Source of the DNA: a virus
Strand: one strand, 5' to 3'
Length of the DNA: 64,000 nt
Virus record (IMG/VR): IMGVR_UViG_3300044734_000006
Location: 1-64,000 of that record
The notes below the pieces were generated by a model. It saw only the letters and a list, made by a program, of their open reading frames with translations, was not told where the DNA came from and searched no databases. Of the stretch, positions 20,487 to 59,132 are shown one piece after another. Made by a program: the position numbers and the translations under genes. How positions within the stretch are numbered: position 1 is the first letter of the stretch; every line of letters starts with the position of its first letter.

Positions 20487-20522
20487 GCACGACGGCGGTC
20501 CGATGGCGTGCCATTCCCATGA

Positions 20523-20528
20523 TACGAT
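20523..20528 (+). promoter_or_regulatory. Leaderless promoter (TACGAT)
   Basis: TACGAT followed by 7 nt and the GTG at 20536, placing the transcript start on the start codon. Directly upstream is GCCATTCCCATG, related to the palindrome in the 36-bp promoters at 22764 and 28201. Confidence 0.5.
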
Positions 20529-20535
20529 GGAGGGC

Positions 20536-21426
20536 GTGATCGAAGTTAGCAAGACGTGGTCACTTGTGCCATGCAAGTTTCGTCCTGGAGTTTCAAGGGA
20601 GCGAGGAGTCCACGCCCAGGAGGCGCGGGCTGGCAAGTATCGCGGCGCCCATGTCTGGGCTTGGATGGATGCCAACGGCGGTGTGCCGCCTCCTAAGGGC
20701 ATGTGCGTGTGCCATCACTGCGATGTTCCGCCCTGCATAGAAGCTGAGCACCTGTTCCTCGGTACATACGCTGACAACACCCATGATGCGCAGGCCAAGG
20801 GGCGGATGCCTATCCGCGCACCGCGCCACGTAGCGCGTCGTGCTGGAACACAAACCTATGTTCGGAGTATCGCGATGCTACGATCGCCCACCGACCCGCC
20901 ACTCGACCACCAAGAGAGCGCCGATGAGCCCGTTCGACGTGATCCAGCCGATCTCGCAGACGTGAGCCCTCCAACCGACCCGCACCAGCCCAGAGCGCGT
21001 AGTGTCCACTGGCCTGACGAACTTCACGTCTATGTTGCGGCCGTGGCTCGGGAGGGTGAGGTCCAGGGGTACACGCGGGCCGAGTTCAACATCTCCACCG
21101 TGGCGCGTGAGGCCCTGCATCGTCTCCGTGATCGCCTAGAGGAACCCGCCACAGCAGCCGCTGCCATCATCCGAAGCTGGCGAAAGGATGACGATGGTAC
21201 GGCGCCGCCCCCGTCCAAGGCTCGCAGTGTGTGGTGGGACGACGAGCAGCACGGGTGGCTCGAGGACGTCGTCCGCGAAGGGAAGCGTGCCGGCAGCAAG
21301 GCGTTCAACATCAGCGTGGTGGTCCGCGAGGCGCTGTACCGGTTCCGTGCCCGCTACCCGGAGCCTGCCAAGGCCGCCGAGGCGATCATCCGGGGCTGGG
21401 AGCGAGAGGCGAAGCGCGAAGGCTAG
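20536..21426 (+). CDS. HNH endonuclease fused to two tandem copies of a DNA-binding-like domain
   Basis: About 296 residues. The first third is an HNH_3-type endonuclease: 'GAHVWAWMDANGGVPPPKGM' then 'CVCHHCDVPPCIEAEHLFLG' with 'TYADNTHDAQAKGR'. The rest carries two copies of a 60-residue unit: 'ARSVHWPDELHVYVAAVARE' with 'EFNISTVAREALHRLRDRL', and 'ARSVWWDDEQHGWLEDVVRE' with 'AFNISVVVREALYRFRARY'. The strand followed by two helices resembles a ribbon-helix-helix fold. The start is uncertain (GTG 20536 by promoter spacing; ATG 20527 or 20503 possible). Likely a homing-type endonuclease. Confidence 0.75.
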   Translation: MIEVSKTWSLVPCKFRPGVSRERGVHAQEARAGKYRGAHVWAWMDANGGVPPPKGMCVCHHCDVPPCIEAEHLFLGTYADNTHDAQAKGRMPIRAPRHVARRAGTQTYVRSIAMLRSPTDPPLDHQESADEPVRRDPADLADVSPPTDPHQPRARSVHWPDELHVYVAAVAREGEVQGYTRAEFNISTVAREALHRLRDRLEEPATAAAAIIRSWRKDDDGTAPPPSKARSVWWDDEQHGWLEDVVREGKRAGSKAFNISVVVREALYRFRARYPEPAKAAEAIIRGWEREAKREG

Positions 21427-21428
21427 GC

Positions 21429-21443
21429 GTATCCTTTGGATAC
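21429..21443. promoter_or_regulatory. Palindrome GTATCCTTTGGATAC (stoperator-like site 1)
   Basis: Perfect 6-bp arms with a 3-bp centre, between the ends of two converging genes. The same palindrome with other centre bases lies at 41287 and 59015. Confidence 0.55.
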
Positions 21444-29074: not shown

Positions 29075-29151
29075 GCACCAAGATCACGCTGCTGGTGAGC
29101 GCCACCGTCCTCGGGTTTTCCGCAGAGGGACGGCGCTGGCGGCGCCGGTAA
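29071..29151 (+). CDS. Possible microprotein (26 aa)
   Basis: MSTKITLLVSATVLGF... with an Arg-rich end; coupled by ATGA. May be a short membrane peptide. Confidence 0.35.
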   Translation: MSTKITLLVSATVLGFSAEGRRWRRR

Positions 29152-29201
29152 TGCGCAAGTTCCGGTCCCAAGCCCGGGCGCAAAGGAGGATCCACCGATG
29201 A
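29151..29201 (+). CDS. Possible basic 16-residue peptide
   Basis: Frame MRKFRSQARAQRRIHR between two coupled genes (TAATG and ATGA junctions). It contains the AGGAGG of the next gene, so it may simply bridge ribosomes across the gap. Confidence 0.25.
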   Translation: MRKFRSQARAQRRIHR

Positions 29202-39000: not shown

Positions 39001-39584
39001 GCCCTCCGATCGTCGGATACCGCGCATGGCGGGTTGTGGGCGACGAACTGAGCAGCCTGTTCGTCGAGCAGATCGCATGGCCAGCAGGCGAGCGGATGGT
39101 CGCAGAATGCATGCCGCACAGGCTGCATAGCCAGCTAGCGCCGCACGATGCCCCGTGTCAGCAGTGCGACTGCGGCATCTACGCACGGACGACGCTACCC
39201 GGCATCTTCGATGAACTATGGAGTCGCGGGATGGCATCACTGGACACGGTCGTCGGTGCTGTGCTCCTTTATGGCGTCACGTACCACGGCAAGAGCGGAC
39301 CGCACGTCATCCGCGCTCAGTACGCCCAGCCGATCTGCCTGCTTGCCGATGATGCGTGGTACCCGCTCAGGCTGACGGACGATGGTATCGACCTGCAGGA
39401 GTGGCGGGCCATGCTGGAGCGTGTGTCGCAACGGTATGGGTTGCCGGTCGTGCGGCGTGACAGTATCGAGCGGTACGCAGCGGAGTTCGGCGAGCCGCTG
39501 TGCACGACCGAGGACGAACGGGTCACGCATGCGTCTGCTGATCCCCGTTGGCGCTCCTGGTGGCCGTGGGGCTTGGGATCGTAG
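38997..39584 (+). CDS. Unknown protein (195 aa)
   Basis: 'PPIVGYRAWRVVGDELSSLF' with Cys in 'HDAPCQQCDCGIYA' matches a widely seen but unnamed actinobacterial/phage domain ('GYRAWR...APC..C.CGIYA'). The second half is unrelated alpha/beta. No function proposed. Confidence 0.6.
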   Translation: MSPPIVGYRAWRVVGDELSSLFVEQIAWPAGERMVAECMPHRLHSQLAPHDAPCQQCDCGIYARTTLPGIFDELWSRGMASLDTVVGAVLLYGVTYHGKSGPHVIRAQYAQPICLLADDAWYPLRLTDDGIDLQEWRAMLERVSQRYGLPVVRRDSIERYAAEFGEPLCTTEDERVTHASADPRWRSWWPWGLGS

Positions 39585-39627
39585 TGGGCGACACCATGCT
39601 CGATGTGATCCGCACGCGGACCTGAGC

Positions 39628-40200
39628 GTGCCTCGCTTGCGCTGGACCGACGAGGAGCGTGCCGAGGCCATTCGCCTGTATGAGAAGGTAGGGCCAGCAG
39701 AGGCAGCACGGCGTACCGGGATCCCTCTCGGCACGGTGAAGTCGCTTGCCAAGAGGGCTGGGGTAGCAACCGGATGCATCCCGTCCTTGGTGGCCGCGAC
39801 CACAGTCGCTGCACTGACCCTCAAAGATCGCCGGCAGCGGTTCGCGGTCGCCCTCCAAGATCAGGCCGAGAAGTTCCTCGAGCACCTATGGGCACCGAGC
39901 ACGGCGTTCCACTGGGGCACGGTGAGCGAGCAGGACGGAGATGTGACGACCACTCGCACCGAGTTCATGGAGCATATCCTTGAGCGGCCGACGTTTGGAG
40001 ATCAGAAGGCGATCATGTCCACCATCTGCATGGCCGTGGACCGATCGATGAAGCTGACTGGCGACGACGCCGCACCTGTGGGGGCGGGCATCCTCGTCCA
40101 GATCCAACAGCGGCTTGCGGGCGGACTGGACGCGCAGACGCGGGTGCAAGTGGCCGCACTGCTCGACACCATCGAGGCCCCGACCGAGCCGGCGGCATGA
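39628..40200 (+). CDS. terS: Terminase small subunit (190 aa)
   Basis: GTG at 39628. An N-terminal HTH, 'LRWTDEERAEAIRLYEKVGP' with 'AEAARRTGIPLGTVKSLAKR', is the DNA-binding part of terminase small subunits. A helical oligomerisation region follows ('LKDRRQRFAVALQDQAEKFL'). Location directly before the ATPase subunit supports the call. It should recognise the pac/cos site and present DNA to the motor. Confidence 0.78.
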   Translation: MPRLRWTDEERAEAIRLYEKVGPAEAARRTGIPLGTVKSLAKRAGVATGCIPSLVAATTVAALTLKDRRQRFAVALQDQAEKFLEHLWAPSTAFHWGTVSEQDGDVTTTRTEFMEHILERPTFGDQKAIMSTICMAVDRSMKLTGDDAAPVGAGILVQIQQRLAGGLDAQTRVQVAALLDTIEAPTEPAA

Positions 40201-40210
40201 GCGGCTGACT

Positions 40211-41023
40211 GTGGCCACCCTGTCTCCCGCTCGTCGGCTGGCAGCTGCCCTTGACCCGGTGGTGCGGATGCAGCACGGTGGCATGACAGCCGACCCGTGG
40301 CAGGCGCTGATTCTGCGTACCGAGGCACGGCGTGTCATCGCGCTCACATCGCGCCAGACGGGTAAGTCGACCACGGCTGCCACAGACGCCCTGCATACCG
40401 CCGAGACCGAGAATAGTGGCGACATCATCATCGCTGCGGCCAAGCAGGATCAGGCAGCAGAGATGTTGCGCAAGTCGAAGGCGCTCTACAGCATCGGCGG
40501 GAGCATCTACGACGACGACCTCGGCGTCGATTCCGTGCTCCGCATCGAGATGCCGAACCGTTCGCGCATCTTGGCTGTGCCAGGCAAGGCCGCCACCGTC
40601 CGTAGCTTCACAGCGAAGAAGCTCATCGTTGATGAGGCCGCTTACGTCCCAGACGAGTTCTACATGGCTGTCTTCCCAATGCTCGCCGTGTCGCATGGAC
40701 GCATCTCGCTATACAGCACTGCGCATGCCAAGTCAGGGGCGTTTTATGACATCTGGACTGAGGCGCCTGAATGGGACTTCCGACTGCCACCCGAGGCGCA
40801 AGAGGAAGCGTGGCTCAAGATCAAGGTGCCGTGGTGGGAGTGTCCACGTATCCGACCGGAGTTCATCGAGGCAGAGCGGCGTAGATTCGGGGAGCAGTAC
40901 GTGCTTCGAGAGTATTGTTGCGAGTTCGCCGACGCCATCACCGCTGCCTTCCGCTCCGAGGACATCGAGGCCATGGCGCGCGACGACGTGGAGCCGTGGG
41001 CCATCGCAGGGTGGGCGCGGTGA
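40211..41023 (+). CDS. terL: Terminase large subunit, ATPase half (270 aa)
   Basis: GTG at 40211. Walker A 'ALTSRQTGKSTTAA' (45-58), Walker B 'KKLIVDEAAYVPDEFY' (D141, E142), coupling motif 'ISLYSTAHAKSGAFYD'. It ends with 'RSEDIEAMARDDVEPWAIAG', exactly where intact TerL proteins pass into the nuclease domain. The nuclease domain is a separate gene at 41310. The stop and 287-bp gap separate them cleanly at the domain linker. Confidence 0.9.
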   Translation: MATLSPARRLAAALDPVVRMQHGGMTADPWQALILRTEARRVIALTSRQTGKSTTAATDALHTAETENSGDIIIAAAKQDQAAEMLRKSKALYSIGGSIYDDDLGVDSVLRIEMPNRSRILAVPGKAATVRSFTAKKLIVDEAAYVPDEFYMAVFPMLAVSHGRISLYSTAHAKSGAFYDIWTEAPEWDFRLPPEAQEEAWLKIKVPWWECPRIRPEFIEAERRRFGEQYVLREYCCEFADAITAAFRSEDIEAMARDDVEPWAIAGWAR

Positions 41024-41060
41024 TCCTGTGGCAGATCGCGTCTGCGCCTACTCTGCCCGG

Positions 41061-41282
41061 ATGCCTGAGTTGGACATCGATGCAGCCAACGGTCTCTGGT
41101 ACTGCGCAGTCCGCGATGGCCTCGTGGAGATGTACGCCGAGGACGCGTCCACATGGGCGCTGACCGACCGCGGGCTGGAGGTGGCCTACCGGCGGGCGTT
41201 CACGCAGGGCGCGGATCCAGAGTTCCTCTCTGCGAGCCAACTTATCTCCCTCGCGGTGTACGGCATCACGGACATGGGGTGA
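41061..41282 (+). CDS. Unknown protein between terminase halves (73 aa)
   Basis: MPELDIDAANGLWYCAVRDG... with 'YAEDASTWALTDRGLEVAYR'; compact alpha/beta. Not an obvious endonuclease. It probably arrived as an insertion in the terminase gene. Confidence 0.55.
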   Translation: MPELDIDAANGLWYCAVRDGLVEMYAEDASTWALTDRGLEVAYRRAFTQGADPEFLSASQLISLAVYGITDMG

Positions 41283-41286
41283 GTCC

Positions 41287-41301
41287 GTATCCAATGGATA
41301 C
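41287..41301. promoter_or_regulatory. Palindrome GTATCCAATGGATAC (stoperator-like site 2)
   Basis: Perfect 6-bp arms. It overlaps a TGGATACT that could be a -10 for the ATG at 41310 (about 7 nt downstream). Confidence 0.55.
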
Positions 41302-41309
41302 TGGCCCTG

Positions 41310-42158
41310 ATGCGGCTTAGGGTAGGAGTCGACCTTGGCAAGGTGAATGACTCTAGCGCTGTGACCGTGTGTGAGGTGACCGACGCACCCGCAGCGCTGG
41401 GTCATGTTACCGCAGCGGACGTGGACTCGATGAGCATCGGTATCGACCCGCTCAGCCCACTCGGCATCCTTGGCGTGAGGCATACGCAGCCGGTGTACAT
41501 CGACCCGCTCGACCACCTGCCAGGACCGCGCGTGCCGTCGCTCGAACCGCTCTACACGGCACGTCACATCGAGCGCGCACCGCTCGGCACACCTTATACC
41601 GACGTGGCGATCGGCGTGAGGGTCATCGTCCAGTGGCTCCGGCAGCAGTTTCCTCGCATCGTGCCAGAACTCTACGTCGATGCCACGGGGGTCGGTATCC
41701 CGGTGGTGGACATCCTGCGGCGAGAACTGGCAGGCATTTCGCATCGGCTCGTGCCAGTCACGATCGTCAGCGGGGACGGGTATCACGACGTGGTCACGGC
41801 AGACGGTGCGGACCGCAAGGGCAGGGTCGTGCCGAGAAGTGCGCGGGGGCTGAAGGTCGGCAAGGGCTTCCTCGTGTCGCGGTTGCAGGCGTTGCTGCAG
41901 ACGCAGCGCCTTGTCGGTCCGCGTACGATGGTCGCCGAGTTGCAGGACGAGTTGCGGGTGTTCGAGACGCGGGCGAAGGAGGGGCGGGACGTGTATGGCG
42001 CGAAGGTGGGGGCGCACGATGACCTAGTTTTGTCTGCTGCTCTCGCCGTGCTTGACAGACCGCGGCAGGATGCACGCCGCGTGGTGGAGACGCTGGAGAC
42101 GATCAGCGGCCCGAGCATCGTCGGTGGCGGGCCGGCGGGAGCGTGGGACATTGGCTGA
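41310..42158 (+). CDS. Terminase large subunit, RNase H-like nuclease half (282 aa)
   Basis: 'MRLRVGVDLGKVNDSSAVTV' gives the first Asp of the RNase H fold, 'PELYVDATGVGIPVVDIL' the second, and 'VGAHDDLVLSAALAVLD' the last. This is the headful/cos cutting domain of TerL. Together with 40211-41023 it makes a complete two-part enzyme of normal total length (about 550). The halves must associate in trans, presumably at the portal. Confidence 0.88.
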   Translation: MRLRVGVDLGKVNDSSAVTVCEVTDAPAALGHVTAADVDSMSIGIDPLSPLGILGVRHTQPVYIDPLDHLPGPRVPSLEPLYTARHIERAPLGTPYTDVAIGVRVIVQWLRQQFPRIVPELYVDATGVGIPVVDILRRELAGISHRLVPVTIVSGDGYHDVVTADGADRKGRVVPRSARGLKVGKGFLVSRLQALLQTQRLVGPRTMVAELQDELRVFETRAKEGRDVYGAKVGAHDDLVLSAALAVLDRPRQDARRVVETLETISGPSIVGGGPAGAWDIG

Positions 42159-43364: not shown

Positions 43365-45257
43365 GTGGCGACGCTCCTCGGGCCTGACGGTCGGGCGTTC
43401 CCCAGGACCACACGCGCCGAGTTCGCCGCGGCACAGTCCGCGCTGGCGGCCATGCCGGCAGAACTGCGACGTGCGGTGAACCTCGACGAACTCGGCGTCA
43501 GCGGTACGCAGATCATTGGCGGCTTGGTCTACGAGGAACGCGCCCCCGAACTCGCAGGCTCCAAGGGCATGGAAGTCTGGCGCGAGATGGGGCACGACGC
43601 CACCTTGGCGATGTGTGTGCGCGCCACCATCAACCCGCTGCGCAGTGCGGACTGGTTTATAGAACCTGCGAGCGAGGAACCCGATCACGTTGAGCAAGCC
43701 GACCTCGCGCACTGGTGCCTGTGGGAGTTCGGCACGATGTCATACGACGATCTGCTGCGCCAGCAGATGCGTGCCATGAAGCAGTACGGGGTTGGGGCCT
43801 CGGAGGTGTGCTATCGACCGATCCCATCCGGGGAGTTCGCTGGAAAGTGGGGGTGGGAGAAGCTCGCGTGGCGCAGTCCTCTGAGCCTGTATCGCTTCGA
43901 CGTCGAGCCAGTGCAGACCGAATATGGCGGTACTAGGCGCGAACTCGTGACGATCGTACAACGCGATCCTGCATCGGGGACGCTGTTCTACCTGCCGAAA
44001 GACAAGGTGCTGCTGTTCGTCAACGACCTCGAGGGCGAGAACTTCTTGGGGAGAAGCGCATTCCGCGAGTGCTACGAGGCATGGCGGTACAAGCGTGCCA
44101 TCGGTCGCCTGGAGGCCATTGCCCTCGAGCGTTGTGGCATGGGTCGCCTGAAGGCCACGCTCCCGCAGGACTACTCGGACGAGGAGCGCAAGATGGCTCG
44201 GCAGATCGTGGAGAACGACCGCATCCATGAGAACGCTGGCATCGTCACCACCGAGGCTGTACCGGTCGACGTGATCCACAACTCGCTGGAGGGCGCGGCC
44301 TTTCGTGCGGCATGGGAAGCCTACGATGCGGCGATGTGCTTTCCGTTCCTCGCCCAGTACCTGCTGCTGGGCCAGCGTGGCAACAGCGGCGCGTACTCGC
44401 TCTCCCAGGACCACTCGCAGATCCAACTCACGCAACTCAACGGCGACGCCAACCAGTTCGAGCAGGTGCTCAACCTCAGTCCGGGCATCCCGCTGCTCAT
44501 CTCCATCAACTACCCGAACGCGGACCCGAGCAAGATGCCGAAGTTGCAGCACGGGGACATCGGACGCAAGGACATGGAGCTGATGGGTAAGACCCTGCTC
44601 GCCTTGTCGCAGGGTGGGTGGGTCATGCCGACCGCGCAGGATGAGGACACGCTGCGCAAGTTCGTAGACCTCCCGGAGCGCGACCCGATGCTCGGCCCGG
44701 AAGCCTTGGTGCCGCTCATCCAGCAGGTGTTACCGCCGACGTGGTGGGGGACGCCGCATCAGGCTGGACAGGCGGTGAACCCTGCGGCCAAGGCTCTGGT
44801 CGGCTCTGGCGTGCCAGCGCCGCAGGGCCAGCAGGTTGCGGGGCAGTTCTCCGAGCGCGAGTGGGCCGCCATGGCTGAGCGCTCGGTGAGGGCGCGGATG
44901 CCATGGCGCCGCCCGCAGATTAAGGGTGGACGCGTCACCGCCGAGGATGCCGTGAGGGTGCGGATGGGAGAGTATCTGTTGGACTACTTCGAGCAGGCCG
45001 ACAAGCCACGCATGCAGAAGCCTGATCCGCCCAGCGTACGCCTTGCCAAGCGGCGTAAGCCATACCAGATCGCGCGCATGTCCTCCGATGCGGCCAAGGT
45101 TGTGGAGATCAACGCACGGGCCAAGGCGGGCGGTGGGAGTGCGAACGGTAAGCGCAAGGTGGTCGTGAGCCCAGCGGATATCGTTGCACGGCAGGGTCGT
45201 AGGTCGGTGCAGGACGTGCTTGCAGTGCTCGGTGCGAAGAACGGGAGCGTAAAGTGA
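43365..45257 (+). CDS. Portal protein (DUF935 / Mu gp29-like, 630 aa)
   Basis: Typical DUF935 features: 'TQIIGGLVYEERAPELAGSK', 'ATLAMCVRATINPLRSADWF', 'PKDKVLLFVNDLEGENFLGR', 'NAGIVTTEAVPVDVIHNSL', 'FLAQYLLLGQRGNSGAYSLS' and 'QDHSQIQLTQLNGDANQFEQ'. The C-terminal 130 residues are basic and helical. The dodecameric portal is the DNA entry vertex of the capsid and docks the split terminase. Length is longer than Mu gp29 (about 510), mainly by the tail. Confidence 0.9.
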   Translation: MATLLGPDGRAFPRTTRAEFAAAQSALAAMPAELRRAVNLDELGVSGTQIIGGLVYEERAPELAGSKGMEVWREMGHDATLAMCVRATINPLRSADWFIEPASEEPDHVEQADLAHWCLWEFGTMSYDDLLRQQMRAMKQYGVGASEVCYRPIPSGEFAGKWGWEKLAWRSPLSLYRFDVEPVQTEYGGTRRELVTIVQRDPASGTLFYLPKDKVLLFVNDLEGENFLGRSAFRECYEAWRYKRAIGRLEAIALERCGMGRLKATLPQDYSDEERKMARQIVENDRIHENAGIVTTEAVPVDVIHNSLEGAAFRAAWEAYDAAMCFPFLAQYLLLGQRGNSGAYSLSQDHSQIQLTQLNGDANQFEQVLNLSPGIPLLISINYPNADPSKMPKLQHGDIGRKDMELMGKTLLALSQGGWVMPTAQDEDTLRKFVDLPERDPMLGPEALVPLIQQVLPPTWWGTPHQAGQAVNPAAKALVGSGVPAPQGQQVAGQFSEREWAAMAERSVRARMPWRRPQIKGGRVTAEDAVRVRMGEYLLDYFEQADKPRMQKPDPPSVRLAKRRKPYQIARMSSDAAKVVEINARAKAGGGSANGKRKVVVSPADIVARQGRRSVQDVLAVLGAKNGSVK

Positions 45258-57945: not shown

Positions 57946-58170
57946 ATGAACACACCCCCACCGTGGCGCATCCCCAAGCCGAGGCCGCCAGCTCGCGAAA
58001 GTCGGCTTCGAGCGAACATCTACATGCCCGCCCCACTGGTGGAACGACTAGACCGTCTCCGGGAGCAAGGTGTCGAGATCGCGGTAAGCCGGGTGTGCCA
58101 AGACGCTCTGTGGGAAGCCTGCAACGTCGCGGAAGAGGACGCCAAGCGGCGCAGGCGGCGTAGCACATGA
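57946..58170 (+). CDS. Leaderless RHH-like protein (74 aa)
   Basis: 'RANIYMPAPLVERLDRLREQ' with 'GVEIAVSRVCQDALWEACN' has ribbon-helix-helix order (strand, helix, helix). Coupled by ATGA to the HNH gene, it may repress it. Confidence 0.65.
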   Translation: MNTPPPWRIPKPRPPARESRLRANIYMPAPLVERLDRLREQGVEIAVSRVCQDALWEACNVAEEDAKRRRRRST

Positions 58171-58853
58171 CCGCCTTGCGTGAGTTTCGCGATCCCATGG
58201 GACCGGTGCGTCACGTCCTCCCCCACGACATGGTCCGTGGGATAAGGGGGCGCATCCTCCGCGACATGGTGGCTGAACTTCCGGACACCTCGCAGTACAC
58301 GCCACAGTTCGTTCACTACGAGGCGCTTCGCCCGCGAGCGGTCAGGTGGAAGACGGAGCGTCCGACAGTGATGGTTGAGGAGGAGGACGCCGAGTTGGTG
58401 CAGGCTTGCCTGTGCCCGAACTGTCACGTTGATCTCGTACCCGATGGCCTCCTTGCGAGCAGCACACGGAGGAAATACGGTCCATGGATGGCTTGTCCAG
58501 AGTGTCAGTGGGTCTTTCGCGTGGTGATCCCGCAGGCACTACGGCCGCCGCCGGAACCGCCAGAGATAACGCCTCGGCGCGATCCTGTGAGTGTGGCACG
58601 GGCGAAGGCGGTCGAACTTGAGTGGCTCTGCCCGTACTGCCTGACGACGATGGTGGAGGTCATCCCCGTAGGGAAGTACAGGGAATACAAGAGCCGCGTG
58701 CTGACGGCTGACCACATCGTTCCTCGCAGCCGTGGTGGGACGAACTCCCCCGAGAACATCAGTCCGTCATGCCGAACCTGCAACCACGATAAGGCGAGCC
58801 TTCTGCTCTCGGAGTGGCGCAGCCCACGGCGCTGGTGGAATCCGCCGAGATAG
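58167..58853 (+). CDS. HNH endonuclease (228 aa)
   Basis: Two zinc ribbons ('CLCPNCHVDLVPDG', 'MACPECQWVFRV' and 'WLCPYCLTTMVEV') precede the nuclease 'VLTADHIVPRSRGGTNSPEN' with 'ISPSCRTCNHDKASLLLSEW'. The DH..P..GG..N motif is complete. Probably a homing-type or restriction-like nuclease mobile within phages. Confidence 0.88.
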   Translation: MTALREFRDPMGPVRHVLPHDMVRGIRGRILRDMVAELPDTSQYTPQFVHYEALRPRAVRWKTERPTVMVEEEDAELVQACLCPNCHVDLVPDGLLASSTRRKYGPWMACPECQWVFRVVIPQALRPPPEPPEITPRRDPVSVARAKAVELEWLCPYCLTTMVEVIPVGKYREYKSRVLTADHIVPRSRGGTNSPENISPSCRTCNHDKASLLLSEWRSPRRWWNPPR

Positions 58854-59132
58854 CAACCAGCGCGGGTGTACGATGGTTGCCGAGCGGGCCGGGCCACCCC
58901 ACACTCGCATGCGCAGACAGGCCCCTCCGAACCTCCAGGTCGGAGCGCTGAGGGCTGAGCCGGTCTGAGGGATCGGCGGTAACTCTCGCGGCCCGCTTCT
59001 CTCCTTGGTCCCCAGTATCCAAAGGATACGGCTGGAGCCAACCTACGGGGATGCGGCGTCCACGGCTGCGACGGCCTTCGCCGCGCTGATGCCCTGCACG
59101 GAACTAGATCGTACCGCAGTCGGTGGGCTGGG
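58854..59132. other. Intergenic region between converging genes
   Basis: No supported gene. Contains the palindrome at 59015-59029. Confidence 0.45.
59015..59029. promoter_or_regulatory. Palindrome GTATCCAAAGGATAC (stoperator-like site 3)
   Basis: Perfect arms; same family as 21429 and 41287, in each case in a short intergenic space. Confidence 0.55.

Follow-up and report, generated by a model that had tools for sequence, protein, structure and literature searches.

Large terminases are described as carrying an N-terminal ATPase, a flexible linker and a C-terminal nuclease on one polypeptide chain, and the isolated nuclease domain of phage P22 has a reduced activity (PMC7617512); a preliminary description of the DNA analyzed in this work, according to which known TerL proteins are usually single chains, agrees with this picture. 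In the 64,000-nucleotide stretch of viral DNA considered here (positions 1 to 64,000 of the IMG/VR record IMGVR_UViG_3300044734_000006, hereinafter the window), the two domains do not reside on one polypeptide. As that description had proposed and as the open reading frames (ORFs) confirm, they correspond to two separate and intact genes (Table 1), with a gap of 286 bp between them (41024-41309), and this split is conserved. We consider it very likely that the virus possesses a two-subunit large terminase, in which one gene would code for the DNA-translocating ATPase and the other one for an RNase H-like nuclease cutting the packaged DNA. According to this scheme, the ATPase and the nuclease would be translated separately, often in a coupled manner via overlapping stop/start codons, whereas here a small gene parts them. 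Both proteins would meet at the portal; the ATPase ring would translocate the DNA, and the nuclease, recruited via protein contact instead of a linker, would make the terminal cuts.

The product of the first gene matches Pfam PF03237 Terminase_6N (8.7e-13) and phrog_7579, "terminase large subunit" (3e-42), and the Walker A, Walker B and coupling motifs of an additional strand, conserved glutamate (ASCE) ATPase are all present; a Pfam scan found no nuclease domain in it. When the family profile was compared with solved structures, the ATPase domains of P74-26 (1.4e-13) and T4 gp17 (4.7e-12) were recovered. Identity to the TerL proteins of the phages Riverbug and MMP17 is about 37-38%. In these two single chains the alignment with the ATPase stops at the linker and that with the nuclease starts directly after it, which places the break at the interdomain linker, exactly as had been supposed.

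The second gene is identified as a terminase nuclease, on the combined basis of a sequence profile, a structural model, the alignment with single-chain relatives and a set of invariant residues. Its product has no Pfam match and falls in phrog_27743 ("unknown function"; 1.6e-20), to which all 35 nucleases scanned belong, and a tblastn search with the window protein returned no nuclease relatives among deposited phages. The profile of the nuclease family, compared with solved structures, was significant only for the TerL nucleases of G20c (1.3e-12) and P74-26 (2.1e-12). The AlphaFold model, built on a 35-sequence alignment (five near-identical sequences gave a predicted local distance difference test score, pLDDT, of 38), reaches a pLDDT of 73.9, the greater part of its core exceeding 90, and superposes on the TerL nuclease of G20c with Z 17.3 and 2.1 A over 154 residues. 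The conserved acidic active site of an RNase H-like nuclease is present: D8, D14, D124, D237 and D238 do not vary across the 35 aligned sequences and K185 is likewise conserved. Moreover, the single-chain relatives align across the nuclease, with the VDATGVG and HDD motifs in place. A probable function for PHROG 27743 follows from this identification.

The split is not peculiar to the window. Four other viral contigs carry the ATPase, the 73-codon gene and the nuclease in identical order, with a nuclease identity of 88-96% and an ATPase identity of 66-77%. The comparison of terL in relatives revealed that the gene is split in 4/4 close relatives and that single-chain homologs with a linker at the same site exist further away. 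The idea that the two genes are both functional finds support in the retention of all motifs by the two halves and in the persistence of the split in these relatives and throughout a wide clade. Profile searches provided 80 loci from viral contigs and 80 from bacterial/archaeal genomes, which were classed as fused if the ATPase frame runs into a nuclease-length tail, or as split if it ends and the nuclease lies on another ORF. In the genome set, 67 loci were scored as split by the script, or 68 with L109, whose assignment as fused was rejected as a domain-parsing artefact; ten were fused and two could not be judged. Split loci occur in viruses/proviruses of 11 named host phyla, bacterial and archaeal, and three of them belong to named cultured strains (Ferruginivarius sediminum, Rhodovibrio sodomensis and Zavarzinella formosa). 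The split arrangement is widespread without being common, since phrog_27743 turned up in four Chloroflexota and six Acidobacteriota genomes in surveys that covered about 300 genomes each (0/14 among control genomes).

Different explanations of this locus might be proposed. The downstream gene might code for another enzyme with an RNase H fold, such as a RuvC-like resolvase lying by chance beside a nuclease-less ATPase; indeed, RuvC has the same fold (Z about 10), and PHROGs gives the family no function. However, the best structural matches are all TerL nucleases (after G20c, they are E217, Sf6, P74-26 and T4 gp17), with RuvC enzymes far lower (Z 10.3, against 17.3 for G20c). In addition, the sequence profile is significant for TerL nucleases only, the protein aligns with the C-terminal half of the single-chain relatives, and its linkage with the ATPase recurs at about a hundred loci, so that we regard a resolvase as highly improbable. 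A second explanation is that one chain is restored by splicing (intron or intein), by programmed frameshifting or by the correction of a sequencing error. The TerL of phage Mic1 does carry two inteins (PMC7156551) and many split loci overlap in a shifted frame; nevertheless, no splicing element was detected, and no Rfam match (structured RNA or intron) was found in 40900-41500 up to E=1. The gap ORF is conserved and evolves as a protein-coding gene, and it terminates at its own stop codon before the nuclease frame opens. The same arrangement is found in independent assemblies and in cultured strains, against the splicing or sequencing error that the preliminary description had envisaged as a way to restore one frame. 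Furthermore, at one locus (L142) the sole nuclease gene is situated upstream of the ATPase, at another (L120) it lies on the opposite strand, and at two others (L178 and L183) it is located 1.4-1.9 kb downstream. These pairs are beyond such repair; therefore, splicing, frameshift and sequencing error are excluded as a general cause, and the restoration of a single chain appears extremely improbable for the window as well. The rearranged pairs represent the strongest argument that the two halves would act as separate proteins.

Some points weigh against a two-subunit terminase. That the ATPase and the nuclease act together is something that we infer from conserved linkage and motifs, and a rare frameshift fusion may occur at loci with overlapping genes. 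Many of the genome loci come from metagenome-assembled genomes, and their host assignments are tentative. No split-terminase phage was recovered among the phage-collection matches examined; the TerL proteins of Riverbug, MMP17 and Tunturi_4 are single-chain, and that of MMP7 is apparently so across the record origin.

The origin of the split can also be viewed differently. The preliminary description proposed that an insertion divided terL, that is, that the 73-codon gene and an operator recently cut it in two and that the nuclease could now be under separate control of the operator. It is true that the gene and the palindrome in the gap are both real (only the length of the gap, given as 287 bp, had to be corrected) and that single-chain homologs with a linker at the break site are known. 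However, the comparative data point to a split that is old and clade-wide, in which the two genes normally overlap or abut. In the 111 split loci tallied, a total into which a few close relatives enter repeatedly, a stop/start overlap of 4 bp is possible in 41 and a longer one in 24; the gap is of at most 40 bp in 27 and larger in 13, four loci have an unclear start, and two lack a downstream nuclease on the same strand. The ATPase tree with 157 rows (108 split, 49 fused) required four state changes, whereas shuffled labels required 42 on average, although this tree, searched quickly and poorly supported at many branches, fixes neither the number nor the direction of split/fusion events; an earlier 83-row tree gave 4 against 28. 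Riverbug-type single chains were placed, with low support, among the split rows, so that re-fusion is possible. A split that is usually insert-free contradicts the insertion account, as do the confinement of the 73-codon gene to five close relatives and the behavior of the palindrome (see below); a recent insertion thus appears very unlikely.

The 73-codon ORF differs from its four counterparts by 9-11 synonymous and 1-2 non-synonymous changes, almost all at third positions, and for this reason it is a real gene, under purifying selection. Its product has no match in Pfam, PHROGs or NCBIfam. It is restricted to the window virus and its four close relatives and was found in no other context. 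In one of them (L009, the locus of genome G001) about 300 bp of extra sequence separate the ATPase from the 73-codon gene and include an ORF of about 97 codons (L009 5820-6125), zinc-ribbon-like with paired CxxC motifs as read from the sequence, and other relatives show gaps of 155-1900 bp between ATPase and nuclease. Thus, this interval repeatedly accepts small genes. Both the 73-codon gene and the palindrome were added later, within the lineage of the window virus.

The palindrome, GTATCCAATGGATAC (41287-41301), is probably the site of a (dimeric) DNA-binding protein. In the window, GTATCCNNNGGATAC occurs three times (21429-21443, 41287-41301 and 59015-59029), about 0.002 occurrences being expected; the copies are all intergenic and about 18-20 kb apart, and none was found in the window at one or two mismatches. 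The recurrence of the palindrome stands. The copies at 21429 and 59015, however, lie between convergent genes and not upstream of promoters. The copy before the nuclease is kept in three of the four close relatives (G002-G004) and lost in G001, which retains the first and the third (21429 and 59015) at matching places, and a scan (on the + strand for promoters) found no promoter-like or terminator-like site between the ATPase and nuclease genes. A separate regulation of the nuclease by the palindrome, suggested by its position alone, is therefore unproven. A role as terminator was rejected, given the lack of a T-run and of a scan match. The palindrome at 59015 belongs to an island of 95 bp that shares 98% identity with G001, whereas the flanks of this island have diverged more. 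Two of the three copies are immediately preceded by an ORF with HNH-endonuclease-like motifs recognized by eye (20503-21426 and 58167-58853).

The number of nuclease ORFs per locus is variable: two at 13 loci, although at a few of these a frameshift has broken a single gene (L062, L132 and L159), and four or five at three loci, where a single ATPase gene is accompanied by four (L106), four (L110) and five (L112) nuclease genes. Besides these three, the loci at which tandem nuclease paralogs were observed include L107, L109, L113, L118, L122, L124, L127, L140 and L143. No second nuclease was found in the window virus (G000) or in G001. At the three richest loci, one copy upstream of the ATPase retains all the active-site residues, and several others lack at least one of them (e.g., ESN for DDD at positions 8, 14 and 124). 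The four paralogs of L110 have position-matched counterparts in L112 that are 76-91% identical, against 44-62% between paralogs of the same locus; hence, these paralogs are distinct, of old origin and maintained, and hetero-oligomeric nucleases are suggested by this. It is possible, although we would advance it only tentatively, that across a large group of viruses the terminase nuclease has turned into a subunit that is independent and can be exchanged, and that in some of these viruses it has multiplied to 2-5 paralogs per ATPase, degenerate ones included. If this were true, hetero-oligomeric packaging motors mixing active and inactive nuclease subunits would exist. The multi-nuclease terminase of L110 (159-3708), which is part of a 938-kb contig, has as neighbors a gene of primase type and a Mom-like DNA modification gene, and no capsid/portal gene was seen within the 10.7 kb examined.

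The window locus has the setting of a packaging/head cluster, with the portal gene downstream and a gene containing a helix-turn-helix (HTH) motif upstream. The latter shows weak matches to HTH_23 and Sigma70_r4, as well as to phrog_5536 (unknown function), and its position directly before the large terminase makes it a candidate small terminase. Elsewhere in the window, a type-P5 twister ribozyme (RF02684, 59 bits) is located at 29121-29177 on the + strand.

Table 1. Features of the split terminase locus and its surroundings (positions in the window)
Feature	Position	Strand	Characteristics
HTH-containing gene upstream of the ATPase, candidate small terminase	39382..40200	+	True start uncertain, probably further downstream
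TerL ATPase gene	40211..41023	+	GTG start, TGA stop, 270 aa; Walker A SRQTGKST, Walker B LIVDEA, coupling motif STA
73-codon gene between ATPase and nuclease	41061..41282	+	No known family; lineage-specific insertion
15-bp palindrome GTATCC-AAT-GGATAC	41287..41301	.	8 bp before the nuclease start codon
TerL nuclease gene	41310..42158	+	ATG start, TGA stop, 282 aa; predicted RNase H-like fold
Portal protein gene, next large head gene downstream	43365..45257	+	Pfam Portal_Mu 1.7e-33, phrog_113 1.9e-54

Two questions are debated in models of phage DNA packaging: whether translocation is driven by motion of the covalently linked ATPase and nuclease domains relative to each other, and how the nuclease stays silent while DNA is being packaged. 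Viruses with a separate ATPase and nuclease would offer a natural setting for removing, titrating or exchanging one of the two without the other. They also carry a warning about annotation pipelines, in which a half-length terminase is entered either as a complete protein or as a fragment.

In the full-text literature searched, whose coverage leaves out most subscription journals, no split large terminase is described, which is weak evidence of novelty; the seemingly close papers dealt with inteins, a split RNA polymerase or an integrase. A similar interruption is that of the TerL gene of phage Mic1, which also contains extra sequence; in that case, however, two inteins lie inside one frame and would splice out (PMC7156551), whereas the window carries two independent genes. 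The TerL proteins of G20c, P74-26 and T4 (gp17) share with the window locus a Walker A/B ATPase, an RNase H-like nuclease that agrees in fold and in its active-site acids, and an adjacent portal gene, but their domains are joined by a linker in one chain (PMC7617512). The closest annotated relatives of both halves are the TerL proteins of Thermus phage Riverbug (417 aa) and Meiothermus phage MMP17 (415 aa), in which the nuclease is alignable with all its motifs; they are nevertheless single chains, with a nuclease domain shorter than the 282 aa found here. Finally, the two halves are taken in by the PHROG families 7579 (TerL, 239 positions) and 27743 (233 positions, without function there), both of half-terminase length, and PHROGs draws no link between them. 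Such sequences had therefore already been seen there, without a connection between the two halves.
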